This document shows positions 2,977-63,792 of a DNA stretch of 64,000 bases, piece by piece (positions within the stretch are counted from its first letter, which is position 1; the number at the start of each line of letters is the position of its first letter). The notes beneath the pieces are model-generated. The model was given only the letters and a program-made list of their open reading frames with translations. It searched no databases and was not told where the DNA came from. The DNA is taken from NCBI GenBank assembly GCA_902762905.1, contig CACWQE010000015.1, forward strand, positions 1 to 64,000, in the 5' to 3' direction. This stretch comes from an uncultured Lachnospiraceae bacterium (GTDB lineage: Bacteria > Bacillota > Clostridia > Lachnospirales > Lachnospiraceae). A program made the translations under genes and the position numbers.

Positions 2977-3129
2977 AATGCGTCCTTTCTCTCTATAATA
3001 AAATATTCCAGCCTTTAAAGTTAAAAGTCAATACATTAGTGCCATCTTCTGTATAACAGAAAATTAACTAACTAATAATACAGCCACACCAACTGTTCCA
3101 CTACTTCTTATTCTGACCGTAATTATAGC

Positions 3130-3177
3130 ATTTCACACAAAAAAAGTACAGAACAAATCGAATGTTTGTTCTGTACT
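3130..3177. repeat. Hairpin repeat, copy 1 (left direct repeat flanking DUF3990 pair)
   Basis: A 13-bp perfect stem (AGTACAGAACAAA at 3145-3157, TTTGTTCTGTACT at 3165-3177) with a 7-nt loop. The 44 nt from 3130 to 3173 recur unchanged at 4207-4250, on the other side of the two genes between them. The A-run before the stem would be a U-run on the minus strand for incoming transcripts from the right, so it may also terminate the 3194-4113 operon. Confidence 0.75.
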
Positions 3178-3193
3178 ATATAGCAATCCATTA

Positions 3194-3664
3194 TCAAAAC
3201 CCACCTTCTTGATATGCCCTTGCTATCACATACGACGGTTCATAAAATGCGCTACAATTATAATTATCAATCACATTACACAACTCATTATTATATACCC
3301 GTAAGATTCCATCTACATAATCCTCACTGGGTTGTAACGTATCAACAATTAATCTCTGGTACACCTTTCCCATCTCCAAAGGTGTCGGAATAATCTCCGC
3401 TAATTCCCCATTCACATCCGTAATATCAAAATCTCCGGTCTCAAGATTGTACTCCTCAATCCAATCTTGCTCTACCTGTAACGGATTCTCACAATGCAAT
3501 ACATTTGCAACACTGATCAGATGTTCAAATGCATCTTTACCTATCGTATTAACTACATATTGATTTCGCTGATGCAGCTTGCGTGCTACCCTCTCAATCA
3601 TATAACAGATAAAGTATAGATCATCCGTTGTAATCTCTTCATCCGGGAAATAAATATTGTTCAT
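3194..3664 (-). CDS. Unknown protein, partner of DUF3990-like protein
   Basis: I do not recognise this 156-residue acidic protein. It has no signal peptide, membrane segment or clear catalytic motif. Its start overlaps the stop of the upstream DUF3990-like gene by 4 nt and follows a GGGAGCG ribosome site, so the two are translationally coupled. The tight pairing with an ADP-ribosyltransferase-like gene suggests a partner or neutralising protein of a toxin-antitoxin-like unit. That role is inference from arrangement only. Confidence 0.7.
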   Translation of the reverse strand: MNNIYFPDEEITTDDLYFICYMIERVARKLHQRNQYVVNTIGKDAFEHLISVANVLHCENPLQVEQDWIEEYNLETGDFDITDVNGELAEIIPTPLEMGKVYQRLIVDTLQPSEDYVDGILRVYNNELCNVIDNYNCSAFYEPSYVIARAYQEGGF

Positions 3665-4113
3665 ACTGTCACGCTCCCTTCAAAAGATAAAGCCTTTAAT
3701 GCTGCCTCCGTGCAAAATACAATCTGGTGTGTTGGATATTTAAACTTCACCAATTCCCAAAAAGCCGCCTTACTTATCTTGTTAGAAATATAATCTTCGA
3801 CATAATCCCATATCTGATCATCTGCCATAGGCCCTTCTACTATATCATAATCATGTTCTTTTCCCGTTCTACAATCAACAACAAACTGTAACCACTCTTC
3901 TGTCATTTCATCAAAACATAACAGCTTCAGATCCTTATTCTCTATATAAGAATATCGATTAATGACGGACGATCCTTTTTTTGTCATTGCCCATCGCTTG
4001 GCCTGTTTTTCAATATTAGTGCAATAAAAACCATACCCAAAATCTTTATAGAAGCCATTAATTAAAATCTGAGGTCTGGATACCACCACGTTACTCCCAT
4101 GATATATAATCAT
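3661..4113 (-). CDS. DUF3990-like protein (possible ADP-ribosyltransferase fold)
   Basis: The 150-residue protein opens with YHGSNVVV and continues with a GYGFYCTN...QAKRWA segment. These match the DUF3990 pattern, whose YHGS and GFY motifs resemble NAD-binding elements of ADP-ribosyltransferases. Its length fits a single domain. It is the first gene of a two-gene operon that overlaps the next by 4 nt, and the pair is bracketed by identical 44-nt repeats. DUF3990 genes are often found in toxin-antitoxin-like pairs, but activity here is inferred. Confidence 0.65.
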   Translation of the reverse strand: MIIYHGSNVVVSRPQILINGFYKDFGYGFYCTNIEKQAKRWAMTKKGSSVINRYSYIENKDLKLLCFDEMTEEWLQFVVDCRTGKEHDYDIVEGPMADDQIWDYVEDYISNKISKAAFWELVKFKYPTHQIVFCTEAALKALSFEGSVTV

Positions 4114-4206
4114 AAATATCTCTCCTCATATAATCTCATACATCTCTAATACAATATAATTTTACCATCTATCATGTTTATCTATTATCCTAATTATAAT
4201 TATATC

Positions 4207-4254
4207 ATTTCACACAAAAAAAGTACAGAACAAATCGAATGTTTGTTCTGCACT
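4207..4254. repeat. Hairpin repeat, copy 2 (right direct repeat flanking DUF3990 pair)
   Basis: Second copy of the 44-nt repeat at 3130. The stem is AGTACAGAACAAA (4222-4234) with TTTGTTCTGCACT (4242-4254); one G-T wobble replaces a pair of copy 1. It lies between the XRE gene at 4362 and the DUF3990 gene. Confidence 0.75.
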
Positions 4255-4361
4255 TAATCTTACTACATTTTTACTCTTTTTCTACTTTACAATCATATTT
4301 ATAAGAGGTGATATCATATGTCCGATTAACATCCATCGGAACATATTGTATTTGTGTAGTT

Positions 4362-4673
4362 TCATATTACCACTACAAAATCTGTCTCTTCTAAATCACT
4401 GGTCGCTAATATATCAAGCAATCGAAACACCGGACCTGTCGGATGAGTCCGTCCACTCTCCCATGCCTCAACTGTCTTTTTAGAGACGCCCATATATGAT
4501 GCAAATACACTTTGCGTCATTCCTGCTTTCATTCGTATGTCTCGAATTTCTGTATTCGTATATTCCTTAACAGGCAGGATCATATATGTCTTTACTTTGG
4601 CTTTTCCTTTCCCCTTTTCATAGTCAATTGCCTGTTCCAGTCCTTGTTTTAAATCATCAAATAATGAACTCAT
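4362..4673 (-). CDS. XRE-family antitoxin-like regulator
   Basis: A 103-residue protein with a C-terminal helix-turn-helix (DIRMKAGMTQSVFASYMGV, then SKKTVEAWESG) and an N-terminal part typical of HigA-type antitoxins (SLFDDLKQGLEQAIDYEKGK). I place the start at 4673, preceded by GAGGTGAT, rather than at the upstream in-frame GTG. It probably binds DNA and represses its own promoter. A toxin gene is expected beside such proteins, but none is next to it, so it is an orphan or pairs with a distant gene. Confidence 0.8.
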   Translation of the reverse strand: MSSLFDDLKQGLEQAIDYEKGKGKAKVKTYMILPVKEYTNTEIRDIRMKAGMTQSVFASYMGVSKKTVEAWESGRTHPTGPVFRLLDILATSDLEETDFVVVI

Positions 4674-20498: not shown

Positions 20499-20517
20499 TG
20501 TGTCCGAATCGGTCTAT
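20499..20517. promoter_or_regulatory. 19-bp dispersed palindrome, site 2
   Basis: TGTGTCCGAATCGGTCTAT; 17 of 19 bases match the commonest form. It lies between the holin and lysin genes and overlaps the lysin stop codon. It is the one copy inside the prophage that is mainly non-coding. Confidence 0.7.
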
Positions 20518-21641
20518 TTTACATCTGCTTTATCAACCCAACCATAAACGCCCTTGCCGTCCTGTGAGATACAATGGTAAGGGTGTGTGCCTTTGGTATT
20601 GATTGCCGTTACCTTACAGGTGCTTGTTACATTCTTTTCCTTGGCTGCCTTTGCTGCCGTAGAGGAAATATAAACCGGTCCGCCTGTAAATGTTACTGTA
20701 TCCCCTTTTGAAACGGTTTTAGGGTCATTCTGTGCGGTTGTGGATACCTCTTTTACGGATTCCGCATTAACCCAACCATAAACGCCTTTGCCGTCCTGTG
20801 AGATAAGGTGGTATGGACGCTTTCCCTTGGGATTGATTGCCGTTACCCTGCACCTGCTTACTACGTCCTTTGTATAGGTCGCATTTTCCGCCGTAGAGGA
20901 CTTATAAACCCCTCCGCCTATAAATGTTACACTATCGCCTTTTTCGACCGAATTTGAGCCATTAGACGGCGTTGTAGGTGTACTTGGCTTGTCCTGCTTA
21001 TTTTCTGTCGATACGTCCGCTAAATCGCTTGCCTTTACGGCTTCGTATACTTTGCCCCTACGGCTTTCATATTGCCCCATTACGCTATCTTTTAAGGCGT
21101 AGGCGTGTATTTCTTCAAGTCCTACCTTTTCGACCCCTCCAAGGGCATTTCCTGCGGTCGTTGCAATCCTGCTACTCGCACCGCTACCGCCTTGGTTCTC
21201 TAAGTCTGCATAATAGGCAAGTGCCTTTAAGGATATAAGACCCGTCTTTACGCCGTTTTTGACATACCGGGTTATATCCTCATTTGCTAAATCGTCCTGT
21301 ACTTCCTTTCCCTGTGGAGTGGAAAGTAACTTAGAAATAACCTTTGCTTCTTCTGCGGTTGCTGCTCTCTCCTTTTTATCCCACGCTTTCGGACTACTTC
21401 CGGCAATCTCATTATACAGGGTTTCCCCCAATATCTCCTTTGCCTGCTCCTGGTCCTTATTTACAATGGTCTGCAAGAGGGGCAATGCACGGCCCCAATA
21501 GGCGTTCCATTGGCATTTACCTATACTCATGCCGTGCTTGTTGTCGTTTTTGTTTACGCTTCCGTAGTTTCCCTCCTGTGCGTAAATGATACCACTTGCA
21601 ACCGCCACAACCTTTTTAATCTGTGCTGCCGTTACTGCCAT
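20514..21641 (-). CDS. Endolysin with two SH3-like wall-binding repeats
   Basis: The 375-residue protein has an N-terminal catalytic domain of about 200 residues, beginning with a helical segment and GNYGSVNKNDNKHGMSIGKCQWN. This looks like a lysozyme-fold peptidoglycan hydrolase, but I cannot name the exact family. Then come a Pro/Thr/Ser linker and two repeats of about 60 residues (GDSVTF..GGGVY..S to VYGWVNAESV, and GDTVTFTGGPVYISS to VYGWVDKADV). The same repeat occurs in the amidase next door and in the baseplate hub. It probably cleaves the host wall at lysis. Confidence 0.82.
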   Translation of the reverse strand: MAVTAAQIKKVVAVASGIIYAQEGNYGSVNKNDNKHGMSIGKCQWNAYWGRALPLLQTIVNKDQEQAKEILGETLYNEIAGSSPKAWDKKERAATAEEAKVISKLLSTPQGKEVQDDLANEDITRYVKNGVKTGLISLKALAYYADLENQGGSGASSRIATTAGNALGGVEKVGLEEIHAYALKDSVMGQYESRRGKVYEAVKASDLADVSTENKQDKPSTPTTPSNGSNSVEKGDSVTFIGGGVYKSSTAENATYTKDVVSRCRVTAINPKGKRPYHLISQDGKGVYGWVNAESVKEVSTTAQNDPKTVSKGDTVTFTGGPVYISSTAAKAAKEKNVTSTCKVTAINTKGTHPYHCISQDGKGVYGWVDKADVK

Positions 21642-21651
21642 TATGTACCTC

Positions 21652-22452
21652 CTACTTTCTTACGCTTGCCTTATCAACCCAACCGTAAACACCCTTGCCG
21701 TCCTGTGAGATACAATGGTAAGGGTGTGTGCCTTTGGTATTGATTGCCGTTACCTTACAGGTGCTTGTTTTATTTACCGTCTTGGCTGCCTTGGCTGCCG
21801 TAGAGGAAATATAAACCGCTCCGCCTGTAAATGTTACAATGTCGTTTTTACTGATTGTTCCGCCGTCTGCGTTTCCATTATCTGCGTTGCCATTATTTCC
21901 GCCGTTGTCTGCAATGCCTAAAGTCTTTAAGATACCTTTAGCGTATGCAATTCCAAAGGCTCTCTGTTCTGCCAATGTGTCCGCCTGTGCTGCGTCTGCT
22001 GCATTGTCTACAAATACGCCCTCGCAAATAATAGACGGTGCTTTGATACAACGGATAAATCCGTAGTAATCAGACCCGGAAGAGTTAAGACGGGTCTTTA
22101 ACCCCCTGCTATTCTGTCCGATTGCTTTTACCTCTGCTTCAATGTTCTGTGCAAGGGTCTTAGATGTACCGCCTTTGTGATAGTGGTATACCTCGAATCC
22201 GTCCCCGCCCCCGGCGTTGTTGTGAATATCCACCGCCAAATCCGGGTTAAATGCGTTGCACTCTCTGATTTCCTCGGTCAAAGGGTCGTTTTCATCTACT
22301 GTACGGCTCATTTTTACCGTTACGCCGTTCGCCTGCAAGTAATCACGGCAAGCCAACGCCATATTAAGGTTTACATCTGCTTCCTTGATGTACTTTACCG
22401 CTCCGGGGTCGCTTCCTCCGTGACCCACTCCTAAAAATACTTTTTTTGCCAT
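21652..22452 (-). CDS. N-acetylmuramoyl-L-alanine amidase with SH3-like repeat
   Basis: An Amidase_3 zinc hydrolase: zinc-binding motifs GVGHGGSDPGA (about residue 8), then E in EADVNLNMALA, then VDIHNNAG, and the catalytic C-terminal glutamate in ICEGVFVDN. It cleaves the bond between muramic acid and the stem peptide. One SH3-like repeat (IVTFTGGAVYISS to VYGWVDKASV) closes the protein after a Gly/Asn/Asp linker. The adjoining endolysin gives the phage two different wall hydrolases with the same binding module. Confidence 0.92.
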   Translation of the reverse strand: MAKKVFLGVGHGGSDPGAVKYIKEADVNLNMALACRDYLQANGVTVKMSRTVDENDPLTEEIRECNAFNPDLAVDIHNNAGGGDGFEVYHYHKGGTSKTLAQNIEAEVKAIGQNSRGLKTRLNSSGSDYYGFIRCIKAPSIICEGVFVDNAADAAQADTLAEQRAFGIAYAKGILKTLGIADNGGNNGNADNGNADGGTISKNDIVTFTGGAVYISSTAAKAAKTVNKTSTCKVTAINTKGTHPYHCISQDGKGVYGWVDKASVRK

Positions 22453-23180: not shown

Positions 23181-24260
23181 CTAATCCTTTCCGTTGATAA
23201 ATAATTGGTTAAGGCTCTGCCGTAGTCCGTAACTGTTGCAATGCGACAATATGCCACGGTATGACGCTATTGTACGGTCCATTCTTTCCTTGCTTTCCTC
23301 TCCTGCTTTTACCTTTTCAATGTGTCTTTTCATATTCCGCTTGATTTTTACCGCCGTTTTCTTCTTTAGTCTGCGGTGGGTGGCCCAAATCCTGTAGCCT
23401 ACAAAATCAATCCCCATACTGCAAGGTCTTATAGCGGTTTTATTGTTAAGGTTTAAGCGTAGGTTTTCATCTAAGAATACCCTTAACAGTTCCTTGACCT
23501 CTGCTAAATACTTCTTATCGTGGTGTAATATAATAATATCGTCCATGTAACGTATGTAATAATGCAATCCCAACTCATGCTTTGCGTATTGGTCTACCTC
23601 GTTTAGGTAGATGTTTGCGAACATTTGAGAGGTAAGATTGCCTATCGGCATACCCTTATTGCCTAATCGGTCGCATACCTCTACTTCGTCCGGCTCTTTT
23701 CCCATTGGTAAGCCAAACTTGGTAGATTCGCAATTTATAATCTTCTCTAGCAGGTCAAGTAATCTTTCGTCCTTTATCCTGCGTTTTAGGATATTCAATA
23801 ATATTTCATGGTCTACCCTGTAGAAATACTTTGATATATCCATTTTCAGATAATAGTACCGCTCCGGCTTCCTTTCTGTCTGCCGTAACCAATACTGTAG
23901 CCTGTCGGCTGCTTTGTGCGTTCCCTTGCCACGCCTGCAAGCGTAGGAATCGTATATAAACGACTTTTCATAAATCGGGAACAACTGCCGATATATCGCC
24001 CATTGTACTATCCTGTCTTTGAACGGTAGCGACATAATAAGCCTTTTCTTCGGCTCGTACACATAAAAAGTATGATACCTGCCGACCTCATACGTTCCAT
24101 AGATTAGTTGATTCTGAATATCTATTAAATGCTCTTCGTAATTTGCGTTGAAAATCAATACATCATCTCTGTACCGCTTTCCTTTTCTCGCTTCCTCCCA
24201 AGCCTTGTGTAGATTCTCAAAATCATATATCTTTTCGTAAATGTTCTTAATGCTTTGCAT
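23181..24260 (-). CDS. DGR reverse transcriptase
   Basis: The 359-residue protein is a diversity-generating retroelement reverse transcriptase. Motif 3 is YLKMDISKYF, motif 4 is GMPIGNLTSQMFANIYLNEVD (the IGNLTSQ form is typical of DGR enzymes), and the active site is YMDD. A thumb region with a basic stretch (RRLKKKTAVKIKRNMKRH) follows. It copies the template RNA into cDNA with mutations opposite adenines and acts with Avd. Order is target, Avd, template, reverse transcriptase, as in the Bordetella phage DGR. AGAGG precedes the start. Confidence 0.96.
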   Translation of the reverse strand: MQSIKNIYEKIYDFENLHKAWEEARKGKRYRDDVLIFNANYEEHLIDIQNQLIYGTYEVGRYHTFYVYEPKKRLIMSLPFKDRIVQWAIYRQLFPIYEKSFIYDSYACRRGKGTHKAADRLQYWLRQTERKPERYYYLKMDISKYFYRVDHEILLNILKRRIKDERLLDLLEKIINCESTKFGLPMGKEPDEVEVCDRLGNKGMPIGNLTSQMFANIYLNEVDQYAKHELGLHYYIRYMDDIIILHHDKKYLAEVKELLRVFLDENLRLNLNNKTAIRPCSMGIDFVGYRIWATHRRLKKKTAVKIKRNMKRHIEKVKAGEESKERMDRTIASYRGILSHCNSYGLRQSLNQLFINGKD

Positions 24261-24482
24261 TTATCAAACCTCTTTACTGCTAAAATGTGCCGTACAAATC
24301 TACTCGGTTTTTAACCCTTTCAAACGTGACAAATATATATCTTTTCGGCTCGTGCTTACTAACTGTCTTTACGGCAATACAATTTTTTTCCTCGGTTTTC
24401 CCGGGAATGGAAAATAACCCCTTTAACCCTGTTTGTACTGTCCTTGCGGTCGTAACCGTAAGGCTTCTTGACATAGGGGCAG
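24261..24482 (-). ncRNA. DGR template RNA spacer between TR and reverse transcriptase
   Basis: This 222-nt stretch lies between the template repeat and the reverse transcriptase gene. In studied DGRs the equivalent RNA is required for priming and cDNA synthesis. A 64-codon open frame at 24280-24474 is probably chance. RNA boundaries cannot be read from sequence. Confidence 0.6.
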
Positions 24483-24595
24483 AGCGGAGCGGAAGCCAAT
24501 GTTGTCGTTGGAGTTGGAACGAGGGTTATTCAAGTTGAGAGCGGACGGACCCGAATTAGAGGTATTGTTGAACGCCGACCCACGGATAGGCAACC
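24483..24595 (-). repeat. DGR template repeat (TR)
   Basis: A 113-bp sequence matching the 3' ends of both target genes except at adenines of the coding strand. Read in the target frame it gives PIRGSAFNNTSNSGPSALN and so on, rich in AAC/AAT codons, with Asn at the positions that vary. It has 22 adenines: variable repeat 1 differs at 12 and repeat 2 at 7, together 14 positions. None of the other 91 bases differs within the aligned cores. Confidence 0.97.
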
Positions 24596-24628
24596 ACCGT
24601 AACTTTGTGATTATTTCCCAATGTATTT

Positions 24629-25048
24629 TTATTTCTGTTTTTGGTTTCCATTGACAAAATCCATATAACCGCCAATCATTCTACCGATTTCGTCTACCTT
24701 TCTTATCCATACTTCCCAAGTATGAAAATCTAAACAAGGCTTTTGTTTTGGGTATAGGTTTGGGTCTTTGGCAAGCCTTAACAGATTTCTTAATACATCA
24801 ACTTCAATATCCAAATCCTGTAAGGTTGTTTTCTTGTGATACTTCTTTTCGAGCCTTACCGCCATTTCCAACATTCCGTACATTGTCTTTCTTATATCCC
24901 CGGCTAATACATATCTTTCCGTTTTCGGAAAGTCTTTTAGTTGGGGATTTCCATATAAAATCATTTCATAAATCTTTTCTTTGATTTTGAAAACGTCATT
25001 ACCATTAACTTTCTTTTCTTCTCCCTGTGTTTCCTGTATTTCTTCCAC
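24629..25048 (-). CDS. avd: DGR accessory variability determinant (Avd)
   Basis: A 139-residue helical protein with the Avd-family pattern FPKTERYVLAGDIRKTMYGML, then KKYHKKTTLQDLDIEVDVLRNLLRLAKD. In the Bordetella phage system Avd is a pentameric four-helix bundle that binds the reverse transcriptase and template RNA. A GTG at 25048, after AGGGG, is the likely start. It lies between target 1 and the template repeat. Confidence 0.93.
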   Translation of the reverse strand: MEEIQETQGEEKKVNGNDVFKIKEKIYEMILYGNPQLKDFPKTERYVLAGDIRKTMYGMLEMAVRLEKKYHKKTTLQDLDIEVDVLRNLLRLAKDPNLYPKQKPCLDFHTWEVWIRKVDEIGRMIGGYMDFVNGNQKQK

Positions 25049-25084
25049 GTTTTCCCCTGCCTTGCTGATTGGATTTCAGAATAA

Positions 25085-25106
25085 AGGGTGTGCTATCGCA
25101 CACCCT
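25085..25106. other. Stem-loop downstream of variable repeat 1
   Basis: AGGGTGTGC (25085-25093), loop TATC, GCACACCCT (25098-25106): a 9-bp stem whose loop reads GATA on the coding strand. It is 36 bp beyond the variable repeat. Hairpins or cruciforms just after VR are needed for target recognition in the Bordetella phage DGR. Confidence 0.8.
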
Positions 25107-25127
25107 ATCAGTTATTCAGTAATCAGT

Positions 25128-26135
25128 TTACAGTTCGCAAAAAGCGGAGCGGAAGCCAACGCCGTCGTTGGAGACGGAACGAGGGTAATCCAAGAGGAGA
25201 GCGGACGGACCCGAATAAGAGGTATAGTTGAACGCCGACCCACGGACAGGCAACCTTTCGCCCTCTACGTTCGCCCAAATATGGTCGTTTCCGTATGAGG
25301 CCCCGGAATCCGGGAATAAGCCTAATGCAATCAGTAACTTAGGAATTGCGGTACTTCCGTCTGCCGTAACATTCTTAAATACCGTATCCATATTTCCGCC
25401 TACTGTTGTAGAAATTTTTGCACCGTTAATCTTTAATGTGCCTGTCGTTCCCGGCTCTACTAATGTGCCGTCCGGCATAATGGCTTTCCATAGTGTGCTT
25501 GCTGCCGACATATCACAATCAAGTTTCATGCAGTTACCATAAGGGATAATCTGAATTTCTCCATTCATAAGGCGTAAACCGCTAGTCCATTCCCATACAT
25601 TGCCGTTAAGGTCTGCAATGCCTGATGTGTCGTGGTTGTGATACCATGTAGGCTCTCCGCTGCCTGTTAATGTTCTCTGTGTTTCCCCCTGTGGCTGAAT
25701 ACCATGCTCGTAAGCGTGGTAATAATCCTTGCCGTAGTTGGTGTTTCCGTGTGGTACTGTTCCTAATTTCTGTGATAACAGATTGAGGTATGCAAATACT
25801 CCTGTCTGATTTAAATGCCAACCGTTGCCTTTCTTTCGGCACGCTGCTAATGCTTGGTCGAAAGTGATATAGTTTCTAGGCAGTTTCATGCCAAGAGAAT
25901 AGGCACGCTCGTTTTCCACAATGTTAGGAAACTTAGAAACCCAAATAGTGTTTTTTTCTTCTCCGTCCACAAGCCAAAACGGCAATACTTCATCTGTGCC
26001 ACCCGTGATAACTTCGCTATACTTCGGCTTTGAAACGCCGTACATAATACTAGGCATACCAATATCATCATAGATAACCTTGTTGCCTGCTCCAAACTGT
26101 GCTACTGCACCCTGTAAATCGTCAAAATTTGCCAT
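25128..26135 (-). CDS. DGR target 1, FGE-sulfatase/C-type-lectin-fold variable protein
   Basis: The 335-residue protein has the formylglycine-generating-enzyme fold signature DLNGNVWEWTSGLRL near residue 180 and ends with the variable segment PVRGSAFNYTSYSGPSALLL...GFRSAFCEL. Relative to the template, nine codons are changed, including Asn to Tyr, Leu, Asp, Val and Gly. It sits at the end of the tail-fibre genes and should be a displayed receptor-binding protein, as Mtd is in the Bordetella phage. N-terminal residues 1-60 probably attach it to the fibre. AAGGAGGA precedes the start. Confidence 0.93.
   Translation of the reverse strand: MANFDDLQGAVAQFGAGNKVIYDDIGMPSIMYGVSKPKYSEVITGGTDEVLPFWLVDGEEKNTIWVSKFPNIVENERAYSLGMKLPRNYITFDQALAACRKKGNGWHLNQTGVFAYLNLLSQKLGTVPHGNTNYGKDYYHAYEHGIQPQGETQRTLTGSGEPTWYHNHDTSGIADLNGNVWEWTSGLRLMNGEIQIIPYGNCMKLDCDMSAASTLWKAIMPDGTLVEPGTTGTLKINGAKISTTVGGNMDTVFKNVTADGSTAIPKLLIALGLFPDSGASYGNDHIWANVEGERLPVRGSAFNYTSYSGPSALLLDYPRSVSNDGVGFRSAFCEL
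25143..25255 (-). repeat. Variable repeat 1 (VR1)
   Basis: 113 bp aligned to the template without gaps; 12 differences, every one at a template adenine. Its lower-coordinate border is GCGGAGCGG preceded by AAAAA, where the template has GGGCAG: this is the expected IMH versus IMH* difference. Confidence 0.96.
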
Positions 26136-30870: not shown

Positions 30871-32190
30871 TCAATATCCCTCCAAACAACTGCGTAATTT
30901 AATTTGTACCTTGTATCCTCCTGTAATACTGTGTGTTGCCTGTTCTACAATGTACTTTCCGTTAAATTCTCCGTATCCGTAGACCCTAACCGTAATACCT
31001 GCTACATAGTCCACATCTCCAACAAGCGTAAATTCTGCCGTTGTTTCCCCTTTGTTCTTTGCTCTAAGGGATTTTCTCGCTAATTCCTTGGCTTCCGCAA
31101 CGTTTGATACCTTTTGCTTTACTTCCAAGGTCTGACCGTCTGAATTTGCGTTTTCCGGGGTGTATGTGGCTTCTATGGTCTGTTTTGTGTCCGGGTCGGT
31201 GTAGATAACGTGACAGGACGAATAGGCGGTATCTGCCGTCTTTGTAGAGAAACTATAACTAAGTATGTTTCCTTTTCCTGCCTTTATCTTCTTGACCTCT
31301 TTTTTCTTCTCGTAATCGGCAGCGTCAAACAATACGATTGTTTTTGACGTAACTTTAAGGGATATTCCGGCTTTCTTGCACATTTTTTTCAAAAATGCTA
31401 TATCGGTCATGTTTACCTGTTCTCTCCGTTTGTATACCGGGTTGGAATTAGACAAATACATAACCTTAAATTTACTTCGTTTCCCTATCTTTTCTGCCAT
31501 ATTTTTAAGCGTGGTATTTTCCCATACCCTGCTACGCTTTGTCTGTCTTAATTCTGCCTTGTAAGGTATTGAGGTAGCCTTTATACTTAATTTCTGCGGT
31601 GGCCCCGTATAACTCACGCTATCAATTTCAAATACGCCACAATCCAATACTTTATCTTTTCCGTCTGAATAAGGGTTTTTCTGAATAACTAAAGCGTGTA
31701 TTTCCGTGCCTTTGAACGCTCTTTTTTCGGATACCTTGGTAGTCTTTTTCGTTGTGACCGTTTCGCCCTCGACATCTGAAGCGTTGACCCAACCGTAAAC
31801 TTTCTTTCCGTCCTGTGAGATAAGGTGGTAGGGGTGGGCGTTTGAATTTGCAATAGTGCATTTACACTTACTCGCCCCTCTTGTTACTGTCGGTTCTGCT
31901 GCCATTGATGAAATATAAACCGGTCCGCCTTTAAACTGTACGATATTTCCTACCTTTACCTCTCCTTTTGTGGTAACTGTTTCGGATTTTGCCGTTTTAT
32001 TTGTATTAAGCCAATCCTTAATCCATTTACCCTCTCTATCATCAAGCGATATAGATATATCGTCCGTTTCGTCCTCTTCCTTGTCCGTGAAAGACAGGGA
32101 TAACAGGTACTTTGAAAGGTCTTTGGATATATCCTTGCCCTTAAAATAGAGTTTAACCGCCGTTCTTCTTGCTAACGTCCTGTCACTCAC
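30871..32190 (-). CDS. gpD-like baseplate hub with inserted wall-binding domain
   Basis: A 439-residue P2 gpD-type hub: N-terminal beta domain (AVKLYFKGKDISKDLSKYLLSLSF), then MTDIAFLKKMCKKAGISLKVTSK and a C-terminal barrel. Inserted at about residues 80-140 is the same SH3-like repeat found in the two lysins (GNIVQFKGGPVYISS to KVYGWVNASDV). This places a wall-binding module at the tail tip. At 31186-31204 the coding sequence holds a degenerate version of the dispersed palindrome. Confidence 0.88.
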   Translation of the reverse strand: MSDRTLARRTAVKLYFKGKDISKDLSKYLLSLSFTDKEEDETDDISISLDDREGKWIKDWLNTNKTAKSETVTTKGEVKVGNIVQFKGGPVYISSMAAEPTVTRGASKCKCTIANSNAHPYHLISQDGKKVYGWVNASDVEGETVTTKKTTKVSEKRAFKGTEIHALVIQKNPYSDGKDKVLDCGVFEIDSVSYTGPPQKLSIKATSIPYKAELRQTKRSRVWENTTLKNMAEKIGKRSKFKVMYLSNSNPVYKRREQVNMTDIAFLKKMCKKAGISLKVTSKTIVLFDAADYEKKKEVKKIKAGKGNILSYSFSTKTADTAYSSCHVIYTDPDTKQTIEATYTPENANSDGQTLEVKQKVSNVAEAKELARKSLRAKNKGETTAEFTLVGDVDYVAGITVRVYGYGEFNGKYIVEQATHSITGGYKVQIKLRSCLEGY

Positions 32191-56837: not shown

Positions 56838-57354
56838 TTTGTACCCTCCTTTCTGCTTCCTCTGTCATTTTCTTATAGCAATACAGGGTTGCTTTTACGT
56901 CCTCTAAGGAATCGTGAGCCTTAAACTCGTAACCGTAGTATTTTGCACACTTGGTAAGGCTCTGCCACCTATAATTACCGTGGTAACTATCCCATTCGCC
57001 GTAAATCTCTGCAAAGGCAAGCATAGGGTCAAACCATTTCTTACGGTCTACCTCAATGCCGTATGCTCTTAAAAAACTATCCTCAAAGGCGTAATTGTAG
57101 GCTATTACATAATCTGCCCGGTTGAGAATATCAAGTACCGTAGGCACATATCTTTCAAACGGCAACTCATTAGCGACCATTAAAGGCGTAATGCCGTGTA
57201 CTCTCTGTGCGTCCTCCCAACTGTCTTTACTGTTTGGTCTGCAATACGCATTAAGCAGGGTGTTGTATTCTTCGTCTATGATTGATACCTGCAATACTTC
57301 ATCTTCCCCGGCTTTAAATCCTGTTGTTTCAAAATCAATTATTGCTATCATCAT
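56803..57354 (-). CDS. DnaQ-like 3'-5' exonuclease
   Basis: A 183-residue DEDD exonuclease: Exo I IAIIDFETTGF, Exo II YVIAYNYAFEDSFL and Exo III HDSLEDVKATLY. It degrades single strands or proofreads during phage replication. Overlaps both neighbours. Confidence 0.9.
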   Translation of the reverse strand: MMIAIIDFETTGFKAGEDEVLQVSIIDEEYNTLLNAYCRPNSKDSWEDAQRVHGITPLMVANELPFERYVPTVLDILNRADYVIAYNYAFEDSFLRAYGIEVDRKKWFDPMLAFAEIYGEWDSYHGNYRWQSLTKCAKYYGYEFKAHDSLEDVKATLYCYKKMTEEAERRVQNADTSDNGEMV

Positions 57355-58471
57355 CTATTACCTCCGTTCTCTTCATTCCAACTTTTATTTTTTCTTTTAG
57401 CAATATTTCCCTTGTACGCTCGTTTCCGTATATTCCCATATAATCTATGTCTTTATAATAAATAATCCCCAAATTATGGATATTGAGCCATTCTATCACA
57501 AACCAGTAACCTAATCCGTTATTGCTCGGCTTCCAATATCCGTCCTCTCCAAACTCTCCGCCCCTTAATACATAATCCGCAATTCTTGGTTCTTTTATCT
57601 GTAGTGTCGCTATGCGTTCCTTATCCTGTGTTATTCCGAAAAGGCAAAATACGCAACCTGTCCTCATGCAACCTGTTGTACGATATTTACACGTTTTGTC
57701 ATCAAAAATAACTTTTCCATACGCTTGAGCGATTTCTAAATTGTTTTCTTTGATATATTGCAGTACGTCATTTTCCGTCCAAAATGACATTGGATTACTT
57801 ACAGGATTTTTCATTTCAAATCCATTACATCCGTTTTTCATCCATTGTTGCTTACGGAATCTGCTTTCTTCTGCCATTGTGCCAATAAATGGTTTTTTGT
57901 CATTTTTCTTTGCAAACGCTTTAGCAGGCTTTTTTTTCATAACATTGCAGCACATATGCGATATTTCAAACGGTGCATTAAGTAAAAAACCCCATTTTTC
58001 TTGATTGTAAAGGCTTTTTCTCCCCTCTTTGTCAACTGCCGTTCCTTGTAATTTTGCTAATCTGTATGAATAATATCCTTTCCCCGATTTCAAGCCTTTT
58101 CTTGCCTGTGAAACACACTCGGCAACTTCTTTACTGATAACAGGGTATCCATACTTTAGTAAAACCTCTCTAAAGTTCATCTCTGGTCTTATAGTGGTTA
58201 CATTTTCTTTGCTTCTTGCAAATATCCCTACCGATGGATATTCGAGACCCGTATTTACAAATACCGCTTCTATTTCGGGATACATTTCACGGACTATATG
58301 GAGTAGCACTGTGCTGTCCTTTCCTCCGCTGAAAGATATGTATACTCCGTCCTCCCCATACTCATTAACCCAACCTCTTATCCTCGATTGCGTCATTCTG
58401 ATTTTTATATCAAGCGGTATACTCTGCATAATTTTTAAATCATTCTCACTATGTTTGTATCCTGCTGTCAT
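57335..58471 (-). CDS. PAPS-reductase-like PP-loop protein with Cys cluster
   Basis: A 378-residue protein of the phosphoadenosine phosphosulfate reductase fold: PP-loop SFSGGKDSTVLLHIV near residue 47 and a C-terminal cysteine set (TTGCMRTGCVFCLFG) that can hold an Fe-S cluster. PP-loop enzymes activate substrates as adenylates. Phage homologues are common, and some relatives act in DNA sulfur modification (DndC). It lies between an exonuclease and a glycosylase gene, so nucleic-acid modification is a fair guess. Confidence 0.85.
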   Translation of the reverse strand: MTAGYKHSENDLKIMQSIPLDIKIRMTQSRIRGWVNEYGEDGVYISFSGGKDSTVLLHIVREMYPEIEAVFVNTGLEYPSVGIFARSKENVTTIRPEMNFREVLLKYGYPVISKEVAECVSQARKGLKSGKGYYSYRLAKLQGTAVDKEGRKSLYNQEKWGFLLNAPFEISHMCCNVMKKKPAKAFAKKNDKKPFIGTMAEESRFRKQQWMKNGCNGFEMKNPVSNPMSFWTENDVLQYIKENNLEIAQAYGKVIFDDKTCKYRTTGCMRTGCVFCLFGITQDKERIATLQIKEPRIADYVLRGGEFGEDGYWKPSNNGLGYWFVIEWLNIHNLGIIYYKDIDYMGIYGNERTREILLKEKIKVGMKRTEVIDDDSNN

Positions 58472-58474
58472 TTT

Positions 58475-59287
58475 CTACCTCCGTTCCATTTTCCGCTGAT
58501 GATAAAACATATACTGTTGTACGATACCCTCAAATCCCTTGTAACGGTCCCTGTCAAAGTTTCCGTTGTACTCGGTATCTATGATTCTCTTTATCCATGT
58601 GTCAACCGGGAATGTGTCTATTTTGTGGTATCCGAAAAGTGCTATACAGTTCGCCACCTTATCCCCGACCCCTGTTAATCTCTTCAAGTATGTTACTGCA
58701 CAATCTCCGCATAACAGGTAAGGCATTGATAAATCTATTTCGTGATTGGCAACCATTCTTACGGTATCCGCTATGTACTTTGCCCTGTATCCAAATCCCA
58801 TACTTTCCAACTCTTCCTTTAGCCTGTAGTTCCTGTATAAGGTTTCCGAATCCGGGAACGTGTAATAATTTGTATCCGCTATCCTGCTGCCGTATGTACT
58901 GCATAATCGCTCTATCAACTGCTTAATCCTCGGTATCTGCATTTGTTGGCTCGTAATAAAGGTTATAAGCATTTCCCAAGGGTCTTGTTTTAATATCCTT
59001 ATCCCGCTGCCTGCCCGTACTGCTGCCGTGAGGTAATCATCTTTGCTTTGCTCTATAGTGTCCTTGTATATCCTGTAATCTGTCTTTAGGTCAAAGTATT
59101 CCTCCCAAATCTCCTTAAACTCTTCCTCGGTGCAATTAAGGTTAATCGTGTCAAGTGTCTGTGCCACTCTTAAAACCCTGTTATGTGCCACAATATCAAA
59201 GGTCATAGCGTCCAACTCATGCCAACGGAAGCATTGCCCGGAATCCGCTATCTGCTTTAGTTCAAAATCTCTTACTTTTATTACCAT
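58475..59287 (-). CDS. OGG1/AlkA-type DNA glycosylase
   Basis: A 270-residue HhH-GPD glycosylase. The hairpin and active site read LTGVGDKVANCIALFGYHKIDTFPVDTWI, with the catalytic Lys (GDKVAN) and Asp (PVDTW). The N-terminus (DSGQCFRWHELD) matches clostridial OGG1 forms. It removes damaged bases such as 8-oxoguanine. Such an enzyme is unusual on a prophage. It shares the replication operon. Confidence 0.88.
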   Translation of the reverse strand: MVIKVRDFELKQIADSGQCFRWHELDAMTFDIVAHNRVLRVAQTLDTINLNCTEEEFKEIWEEYFDLKTDYRIYKDTIEQSKDDYLTAAVRAGSGIRILKQDPWEMLITFITSQQMQIPRIKQLIERLCSTYGSRIADTNYYTFPDSETLYRNYRLKEELESMGFGYRAKYIADTVRMVANHEIDLSMPYLLCGDCAVTYLKRLTGVGDKVANCIALFGYHKIDTFPVDTWIKRIIDTEYNGNFDRDRYKGFEGIVQQYMFYHQRKMERR

Positions 59288-61944: not shown

Positions 61945-62934
61945 TTATTCAGTAATCAGTTTTCCGTTTACTTCGTAAAAAGCGGAGCGGAAGCCAATGT
62001 CGTCGTAGGAGTAGGAACGAGGGTGATTCAAGCTGAGAGCGGACGGACCCGAATTAGAGGTATTGTCGAACGCCGACCCACGGACAGGCATATACTCGCC
62101 CTCTGTAGCGTCAAACCATACATAAGTATTGTTTTCCTCTTCCAATCTCTTTTCCGGGATAATACCCAAATCTCTAAGTGCCTGCGGAATCTCTGACAAT
62201 TCAACCGTTAAATCCGCAATCTTTACGCCGTCATAATCCGGCTCGTACTCTTCGTGTTCCGGCAAGTCAACTATCGCAATATCTCCGCACTCTACATTGA
62301 CCCTTACCGGTCCCCTGTTCGTCTTAACCTGCTGCCATTCCTTGCTATCCTTTGACAGGTCGCAATATGTGGACGCTGCGTAATTGCCCGGGATATGCTC
62401 GATAATGCCGTTTACAATACGCAATCCTGCCAACCACTCCCATACATTACCGTTAAGGTCTGATACGCCGTACTGCGTATGGTCGTGATTCCATGTAACC
62501 GGTCCGCTTCCTGTCAAAGTGCGACCATATCCGCAATTCTTACGCTCTCCCTCTTCGTTCGGGTGGTAATAATCCTTTCCGCAACTTGTGTTACCGTGTG
62601 GCAATACGCCTTTTTCTCGGCTCTGATTTAACAAATATTCCCACTCTACGGCGGTCATTAAGTGCCAACCCTCGCCCTTGGCTCTGCAAGCCTGTACCGC
62701 TTCGTCAAAGGTAATACATACGGTAGAGTCTACCATTGGCAGACTATACGCCCTGCCGTTAATAACCACGTTCGGATACTTGGAAATATAGATAGCGTCC
62801 GCCACCTTATCCCCGATTTTGAACATTGCCGGGGTTTCCTCTGCGTCCTGTGGTCGCATATAACGGCACATAATGGACGGTATGCCCCTATCGTCAAAAA
62901 TTACTACGTTGTTGTGATGTACTGCGTTTAACAT
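61945..62934 (-). CDS. DGR target 2, remote FGE-sulfatase/C-type-lectin-fold variable protein
   Basis: A 329-residue paralogue of target 1: FDDRGIPSIMCRYM, SKYPNVVINGRAYSLPM, LPHGNTSCGKDYYH, then the fold signature DLNGNVWEWLAGLRI and the variable end PVRGSAFDNTSNSGPSALSL to IGFRSAFYEV, plus seven further residues. Seven codons differ from the template, all by adenine changes. Start at 62934, after AAGGAGG. It lies in the early operon, 37 kb from the reverse transcriptase, so its product is probably not just another tail fibre tip. Confidence 0.92.
   Translation of the reverse strand: MLNAVHHNNVVIFDDRGIPSIMCRYMRPQDAEETPAMFKIGDKVADAIYISKYPNVVINGRAYSLPMVDSTVCITFDEAVQACRAKGEGWHLMTAVEWEYLLNQSREKGVLPHGNTSCGKDYYHPNEEGERKNCGYGRTLTGSGPVTWNHDHTQYGVSDLNGNVWEWLAGLRIVNGIIEHIPGNYAASTYCDLSKDSKEWQQVKTNRGPVRVNVECGDIAIVDLPEHEEYEPDYDGVKIADLTVELSEIPQALRDLGIIPEKRLEEENNTYVWFDATEGEYMPVRGSAFDNTSNSGPSALSLNHPRSYSYDDIGFRSAFYEVNGKLITE
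61981..62090 (-). repeat. Variable repeat 2 (VR2)
   Basis: 110 bp aligned to the template without gaps; 7 differences, all at template adenines. Its lower-coordinate flank AAAAGCGGAGCGG is the same as in VR1. Confidence 0.96.
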
Positions 62935-62948
62935 CTTCCTTGTCCTCC

Positions 62949-63152
62949 TTATTTTTTGGAATAAATTGAGTGTAACTTTATGCTTCCTCTCCGCTTTATG
63001 CTTTCCTCGGTATGTATTCCCGAATCGAAAAAAGCACAAAACGTAGTACCGCCAATAACTGTAGTTGCTACGATATGCGACCCGATATTATGAAACTCGC
63101 ACTTGCTGACGTTTCGGTACGCTATCGTATGCTTTTCTGCCCTGCTTGCCAT
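62949..63152 (-). CDS. Small hypothetical protein upstream of target 2
   Basis: A 67-residue beta-rich protein (IVATTVIGGTTFCAFFDSGIHTEES). AAAGGAGG gives a strong start. 14 bases before target 2. Function unknown. Confidence 0.68.
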   Translation of the reverse strand: MASRAEKHTIAYRNVSKCEFHNIGSHIVATTVIGGTTFCAFFDSGIHTEESIKRRGSIKLHSIYSKK

Positions 63153-63757: not shown

Positions 63758-63792
63758 GCTCACATTATACGTTACAACGCTCACATTGTCAA
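63758..63792 (-). promoter_or_regulatory. Early leftward promoter with operator half-sites
   Basis: Minus strand TTGACA (63792-63787), 17 bp, TATAAT (63769-63764): perfect consensus. GCTCACA elements at 63758-63764 and 63779-63785 are 21 bp apart and overlap it. Confidence 0.85.

Follow-up and report, generated by a model that had tools for sequence, protein, structure and literature searches.

The 64,000-nucleotide stretch analysed here (the window, which forms part of the 116,429-base contig CACWQE010000015.1) contains a diversity-generating retroelement (DGR) carried, as its gene content shows, by a prophage with contractile-tail genes, in a host that is likely a gut bacterium. Read on the reverse strand from position 26135 to 23181, the DGR consists of a first target gene (T1) ending in a variable repeat (VR1), the accessory gene Avd, the template repeat (TR) and the gene of a reverse transcriptase (RT), and a second target gene (T2), ending in its own variable repeat (VR2), lies about 37 kb away from T1 (Table 1). 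A sequence-only reading of the same DNA had proposed that T1, Avd, the template and the RT are contiguous, that a second variable repeat occurs at 61981-62090, and that the enzyme displays IGNLTSQ and YMDD motifs; the four elements are indeed contiguous over 23181-26135, the second repeat lies inside T2 (VR2 core 62090-61982), and both motifs are found in the translation. The RT shares 36% identity with the brt product of phage BPP-1 over 95% of the query. Several features by which a DGR is recognized are present, i.e., a DGR-type RT, a TR close to the RT, a VR in a coding gene, differences at adenine sites, Avd and hairpins, to which is added a VR located in a ligand-binding fold of the C-type lectin type, as indicated by the match to the variable protein TaqVP, by profiles for both targets and by a structure model for T2. 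The T1 protein gave no Pfam match, and T2 was taken to start at the ATG preceded by the best-matching Shine-Dalgarno sequence.

Table 1. Features of the DGR and of the region upstream of its second target (positions in the window)
Feature	Coordinates	Strand	Basis
First target gene (T1), closing the tail module; predicted variable protein of the C-type lectin type	25128..26135	-	335-aa open reading frame; PHROG 2889 E 5e-117; TaqVP 5vf4 E 1e-63 (family profile)
VR1 core, 109 bases, 3' end of T1	25144..25252	-	12 differences from TR, 12/12 at template A
Hairpin 3' of VR1, 9-bp stem, GATA loop	25085..25106	-	like hairpin in 12/13 listed T1 loci
Avd gene, GTG start	24629..25048	-	Pfam bAvd E 1e-24; PHROG 3206 "Avd protein of DGR" E 1e-39
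Core of the template repeat (TR), 109 bases including 22 adenines	24484..24592	-	repeat comparison
DGR reverse transcriptase (RT)	23181..24260	-	IGNLTSQ, YMDD; Pfam RVT_1 E 1e-25; PHROG 1423 E 2e-149
Second target gene (T2), among early genes; predicted variable protein of the C-type lectin type	61945..62934	-	329-aa frame; Pfam FGE-sulfatase E 4e-8; PHROG 2889 E 8e-110
VR2 core, 109 bases, 3' end of T2	61982..62090	-	7 differences from TR, 7/7 at template A
Hairpin 3' of VR2, 8-bp stem, GATA loop	61919..61938	-	found in 10/15 listed T2 loci
Promoter-like site TTGACA-17-TATAAT reading towards T2 (putative function)	63764..63792	-	12/12 match to sigma-70-type consensus

One template and two variable repeats

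Over the ungapped 109-base core, the TR differs from VR1 at 12 positions and from VR2 at 7, and all of these 19 differences occur at template adenines, with none at any other core base, exactly as had been counted from the sequence alone. With adenines accounting for 22 of the 109 core bases, the hypergeometric probability of such an adenine-only pattern is 2e-10 for VR1 and 6e-6 for VR2. Used as a query against its own genome (99.7% complete, 102 contigs), the TR matches three places, corresponding to the TR itself, VR1 and VR2, and no fourth copy or further VR was retrieved by this search of the 102 contigs. An 18-base anchor common to the repeats occurs four times with at most 3 mismatches, three of them exact, compared to 0.06 occurrences in shuffled sequences; taken together with the adenine-only probabilities, these counts rule out a chance similarity of the repeats. 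The hairpins start 37 and 43 bases beyond the VR cores in T1 and T2, respectively, distances that exceed the 4-34 bp measured in the phage DGRs that PMC3240598 takes as examples. That paper reports that target recognition in BPP-1 needs a hairpin of this form, with a GRNA loop, and that the stems of phage DGRs measure 7-10 bp. A Rfam scan of the window revealed no family at gathering score.

The same trio of TR, VR1 and VR2 was taken from seven genomes, namely the present one and six relatives (G176, G177, G180, G181, G182 and G183), and VR1 alone was taken from five further records, whereas the IMG/VR record G002, which equals G177 in all three repeats, was dropped from the pooled counts. Among the 13 genome handles considered, G174 with G134 and G178 with G084 apparently represent the same genomes, which leaves 11 distinct genomes, and 6 of the 13 contain an RT with at least 88% identity. 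T1 and T2 are separated by 36.8-38.6 kb across the seven genomes. Pooled over these genomes, VR2 is changed at 82 of 156 template-adenine sites and at 1 of 607 other sites and VR1, represented by 12 sequences, shows 138 changes at 268 template-adenine sites and 11 at 1040 other sites, the adenines being replaced by G (109), T (70) or C (41). More distant carriers show largely the same picture: the changes that fall on adenines in VR1 and VR2 amount to 14/14 and 15/16 (G014), 8/8 and 10/10 (G022), 10/13 and 12/12 (contig 20 of G176), 13/13 and 11/11 (phage FP_Lagaffe), and 8/9 and 16/20 (Dulem virus 37), and in G178 to 8/8 in T1 and 6/8 in a second target located on another contig. The expected confinement of variation to template adenines, examined in related genomes and proteins rather than in reads, held with few exceptions. 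Contig 88 of G178 (L085) also shows two target-like genes in tandem (134-1111 and 1465-2421), and the VR of the second one matches the TR found on another contig of the same genome.

The seven TRs differ among themselves at 19 columns, which offers a measure of how closely each VR follows its own template. At the variable letters other than adenine, the TR of the same genome is matched by VR1 in 124 of 124 comparisons and by VR2 in 123 of 124, whereas a differing foreign TR is matched at such sites in 0 of 336 (VR1) and 2 of 336 (VR2). Repeated overwriting by one template predicts precisely that both VRs should track their own TR, even at a distance of 37 kb. The earlier proposal that one template serves two sites finds support both in this tracking and in the adenine-only differences observed here and in the relatives.

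The diversification of the targets is recent, because some T2 proteins that are the same at all other residues differ at most of their adenine codons: among the 71 aligned T2 proteins, six pairs show no difference at any of the 316 residues outside the adenine codons, yet 8-12 of their 13 adenine codons are changed. Similarly, the T1 protein of this prophage and that of a near copy (P0121) differ at 8 of 13 adenine codons and at 2 of 322 other residues. The mean entropy reaches 2.74 bits (T2) and 2.68 bits (T1) at adenine codons, compared to 0.35 and 0.27 at the remaining codons of the VR, and to 0.88 and 0.47 over the rest of the protein. These alignments use 70 T2 and 44 T1 proteins out of the 120 listed matches for each (from 3306 and 2625 found), and the sequence pairs within them are not independent. 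At the level of whole loci, G182 and G183 possess the same TR core and differ at 16 of 109 bases in VR1 and 13 of 109 in VR2, their flanking differences amounting to 33/3890 around T1, 80/3746 around the RT and 248/3636 around T2. Some of the T1/T2 protein clusters (P0009, P0010 and P0238) stand for about 3500-4500 member sequences, and such large memberships possibly consist of VR variants occurring within populations.

The two target families and the place of T2

Aligned over 322 columns, i.e., most of their length, T1 and T2 share 43% identity, and both belong to PHROG 2889. Their closest solved relative is TaqVP, a variable protein which has been crystallised and belongs to the DGR of a Thermus prophage; the family profile of T2 matches it with an E-value of 2e-56, next to the value tabulated for T1. 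The structure model of T2 (mean pLDDT 75) also matches TaqVP (Foldseek E 1e-22, TM 0.75), with low confidence in the part corresponding to the VR, and the prediction for T1 is poor (mean pLDDT 49). A conserved NFD segment stands at the start of T1 proteins, in 10 of the 11 T1 rows of the tree and in all 45 aligned T1 proteins, and this N-terminal segment occurs in none of the 12 T2 rows and none of the 71 aligned T2 proteins. It may be the part by which T1 docks on the tail.

A tree was built with the VR cut off, from the target proteins of the present phage, the sister phages, Lagaffe, Dulem virus 37 and the phages of G014, G022 and contig 20 of G176, all 23 rows being used. A single branch (ultrafast bootstrap 95, SH-aLRT 94) separates the 11 T1 from the 12 T2 proteins in this tree, which is unrooted and contains some long-branched rows, and the same split is recovered with the VR kept, on 19 rows (4 of the 23 being left out). 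The separation of T1 from T2 looks older than the divergence of these phages. An origin of T2 by a recent duplication of T1 within the present phage is ruled out by the two-sided tree from which the VR had been removed.

The genomic positions of both targets are also conserved. In the present phage, its relatives and Lagaffe, T1 occurs after the baseplate genes and before Avd and the RT. T2 precedes the YopX-like and Rep genes in the present phage and in most of the relatives seen (four of which, L075-L078, were seen in part), and it starts 0.76-0.99 kb from the prophage end in eight relatives. FP_Lagaffe has its T2 after the integrase and helix-turn-helix (HTH) genes and before the recombination genes, and in Dulem virus 37, where the layout recurs less exactly than in Lagaffe, 8 kb separate T2 from the RT that it follows, and T2 is preceded upstream by an HTH gene and followed downstream by an integrase gene. 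Going beyond what the sequence-only reading had seen, T2 would therefore be an old partner, conserved in position, outside the tail module, and across the prophages compared the second target looks like an orthologue, is conserved in place and remains locked to the same template. This conserved partner of the early region is the interesting part of the system.

Open reading frames on the same strand are found 14 bases upstream and 29-50 bases downstream of T2, which is therefore likely co-transcribed with its neighbours. Beside the promoter-like site reading towards T2, a divergent site (11/12 match) points to the repressor gene. Among 14 relatives, only one (L009) shows the full 12/12 match, with partial matches in L007 (10/12, at a like place) and L010 (11/12, beside the repressor), and the promoter region contains 5 promoter-like sites, compared to 4.4 in shuffled sequences; as evidence for an early expression of T2, the promoter is weak. 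Directly upstream of T2, a 67-aa open reading frame (62949-63152, reverse strand), without Pfam match, shows 81-97% identity in those relatives that the comparison covered, and is a possible partner of T2. PADLOC returned no family for T2 or for this frame at E 0.001. Also near T2, in the early operon, a DNA glycosylase gene (OGG_N, HhH-GPD) and a gene resembling PAPS (3'-phosphoadenosine 5'-phosphosulfate) reductase, with weak matches to BrxP/SspD, occupy 57335-59287 on the reverse strand.

The prophage location, proposed from the sequence alone, is borne out by the genes surrounding the DGR, which encode tail sheath, tape measure, baseplate, capsid, portal, terminase, endolysin, ParA/ParB, C5-methylase, RecU and Rep proteins, and by an XRE-type repressor (63862-64206) followed, on the contig beyond the window, by a serine recombinase (65110-66534). 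An ABC-ATPase gene is apparently split at about 18.8 and 66.55 kb, as judged by eye, and the prophage would therefore measure about 47.7 kb; once it is circularised, T2 would come to stand about 9 kb from the RT, on the far side of the lysis, integrase and repressor genes. T2 matches were found in 4 of 144 host-related genomes searched, the own genome included, and the element is therefore patchily spread. The sister DGR prophages share at their left end the same start T[AT]CATTGTAAAATG against differing host DNA, in 8 of 8 loci (L074-L076 and L078-L082), and the four right ends with listed reading frames (L150, L151, L152 and L154; L153 and L155 are outside the count) all contain a transposase-like gene of about 346-355 aa, with a Pfam HTH_38 match and rve below the cut-off. 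They are apparently IS30-type transposing phages like Lagaffe, and no right-end repeat matching the left-end start was found. Elsewhere in the window, a repeat at 20514-20696, 20748-20930, 21655-21837 and 31772-31836 is common to two adjacent reading frames, one of them endolysin-like, and to a tail protein gene. Outside the prophage, an intergenic 85-base repeat (3108-3192 and 4185-4269) with the inner palindrome ACAGAACAAAT..ATGTTTGTTCTGT looks like the site of a regulator, possibly of the SOS type.

Proposed mechanism and alternative explanations

By analogy with the well-known BPP-1 system, from which the machinery of Avd, RT and TR RNA, the making of complementary DNA and the retrohoming at hairpin-marked ends are borrowed, the RT would copy the template RNA with errors at adenines, and the mutated copies would replace both VR1 and VR2 although these are 37 kb apart. 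The sequence basis for this consists of the parts of the DGR, the adenine-only VRs, the tracking of the own TR by both VRs, the recent variation in relatives and the two target families. It is quite probable that copies of one template in this phage DGR diversify a predicted tail adhesin together with a second binding protein, itself likely expressed early. The least certain part concerns T2: because it occurs among early genes and lacks the N-terminal segment specific to T1, there is about an even chance that it is made from an early operon and is not sited at the tail position of T1.

Nearly as likely as this early, off-tail T2 is that T2 serves as a second receptor-binding protein of the virion, so that the DGR would vary two displayed adhesins, a reading we rate at slightly less than an even chance. 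The resemblance of T1 and T2 over most of their length and their common PHROG speak for it, and such a role was suggested for both targets of Lagaffe_CP (PMC11792537), whereas the position of T2 among early genes, outside the tail module, in the present, sister, Lagaffe and Dulem 37 phages, and its lack of the segment present in every aligned T1 protein, speak against it. That this prophage carries a fossil DGR, with VRs diversified in the past and now still, is improbable: the genes and hairpins are all intact and T1 has changed at adenine codons relative to its near copy, even if only one genome of this prophage is available and carriers of T1/T2 without a DGR do exist (G134). Plain recombination between paralogs, by which VR2, VR1 and TR would have become alike without any adenine-directed copying of a template, could invoke the paralogy of the two genes and the sequence they have in common past the VR through the hairpin. 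It would, however, not restrict the changes to template adenines, adenine-site changes common to both VRs would have spoken for it but VR1 and VR2 of this prophage differ from each other at 12 positions, and the two families are far apart outside the VR and yet agree, at the non-adenine sites of each VR, with their own TR; this explanation can practically be set aside.

A number of observations weigh against the preferred reading of a two-target DGR driven by one template. Changes off adenine exist, i.e., the eleven in VR1 and the single one in VR2 of the pooled counts, to which are added 4 of the 20 changes in VR2 of Dulem virus 37, and nine orphan VRs stand 1-10 non-adenine changes away from the nearest TR in the set. 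G134 carries T1 and a 94% identical T2, yet a DGR-like RT was not found anywhere in its genome; on its contig 46 (L089), T1 is followed by the start of Avd running into a large foreign reading frame, with no TR or RT found, and this truncated Avd corresponds either to decay or to a faulty assembly join. In G175 and G179, T2 is present but no RT lies close to it, an absence which is weak evidence since both are metagenome-assembled genomes. The virus records G001, G003, G004, G005 and G006 show T2 and no T1, four of them being fragments of less than 41 kb and G004 measuring 46 kb. No hairpin was found at 5 of 15 T2 loci and 1 of 13 T1 loci, nor was one of at least 7 bp detected in the stretches scanned in Lagaffe, these being not adjacent to the VR inside its T2. 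Finally, 11 of the 14 relatives are devoid of an 11- or 12-base promoter match in the upstream stretch scanned.

As to what two targets might be for, we tentatively suggest, and rate as rather less likely than its converse, that one template feeds two repertoires used at two stages of the phage life: T1, on the virion, would take part in the choice of the host, and T2, an ancient partner from the early operon without tail anchor, might act inside or on the infected cell, e.g., to counter host defences or competing phages; this division of roles would predate the lineages that carry it. The panel of seven distinct prophage genomes, together with Lagaffe, Dulem virus 37 and the distant records, makes the question of the second target testable.

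Comparison with known systems

The BPP-1 DGR, which we take to have a single target gene, mtd, differs in this respect from the two-target DGR described here. They resemble each other by the succession of target, Avd, TR and RT and by the GRNA-loop hairpin located 3' of the VR (PMC3240598). The DGR of the Thermus aquaticus prophage (TaqVP, PDB code 5vf4) similarly possesses a C-terminal VR, with Avd followed by the TR, and the excerpts of PMC6328139 describe one variable protein, in contrast to the two found here.

DGRs with more than one target are well documented. About 13% of prokaryotic DGR cassettes contain two target genes, as in phages nd4 and nd12, where both belong to one cassette (PMC10743442), and Lelie, CP11 and Lagaffe_CP have two VRs each (PMC11792537). 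Four gut prophage species with a distal second VR (PMC12629997) are akin to the present one, by their description, in that this VR lies far from the RT cassette. In Quimbyvirus (PMC8008677), compared by description only, one VR is located by the tail genes and a distal one in a non-structural gene near defence-related genes, and the neighbours of the second VR include, as here, genes for DNA methylases and for a DNA glycosylase; this is however a Bacteroidetes phage according to its authors, with a frameshifted RT and a second target on the opposite strand. The reason for a second diversified gene in some phage DGRs is called unclear in PMC10743442, PMC11792537 and PMC8008677. A large survey states that remote targets would escape its detection (PMC8144416), and surveys restricted to the vicinity of the RT indeed miss remote targets such as T2. 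No description of a conserved early-region place or of an old T1/T2 split was recognised in the literature searched, preprints and most subscription papers being outside its scope.

The closest likeness is to FP_Lagaffe / Lagaffe_CP (MG711461; PMC5883640, PMC11792537), in which the baseplate J/I genes, T1, Avd, RT, lysis genes, integrase/HTH genes, T2 and recombination genes follow one another, and whose two FGE/MTD-like targets are 40% identical (PMC11792537). The present prophage shows this two-target arrangement, with T1-Avd-TR-RT placed after the baseplate genes and T2 past the lysis and integrase/HTH genes, ahead of the early genes. The two phages nevertheless differ by their sequences (RT 50% and T2 41% identical), by the T2 of Lagaffe, which extends past the VR (420 aa), and by its IS30-type integrase, replaced here by the serine recombinase. 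A blastn search with the DGR region gave no Lagaffe match, and blastn of T2 against phage records gave nothing, whereas tblastn did match. The arrangement is of the Lagaffe type but, because the IS30-type integrase is lacking and only parts of the genomes were compared, the prophage is not filed in the genus Lagaffevirus. Phage DGRs with two VRs, that of Lagaffe included, have already been published, and the DGR described here joins them.

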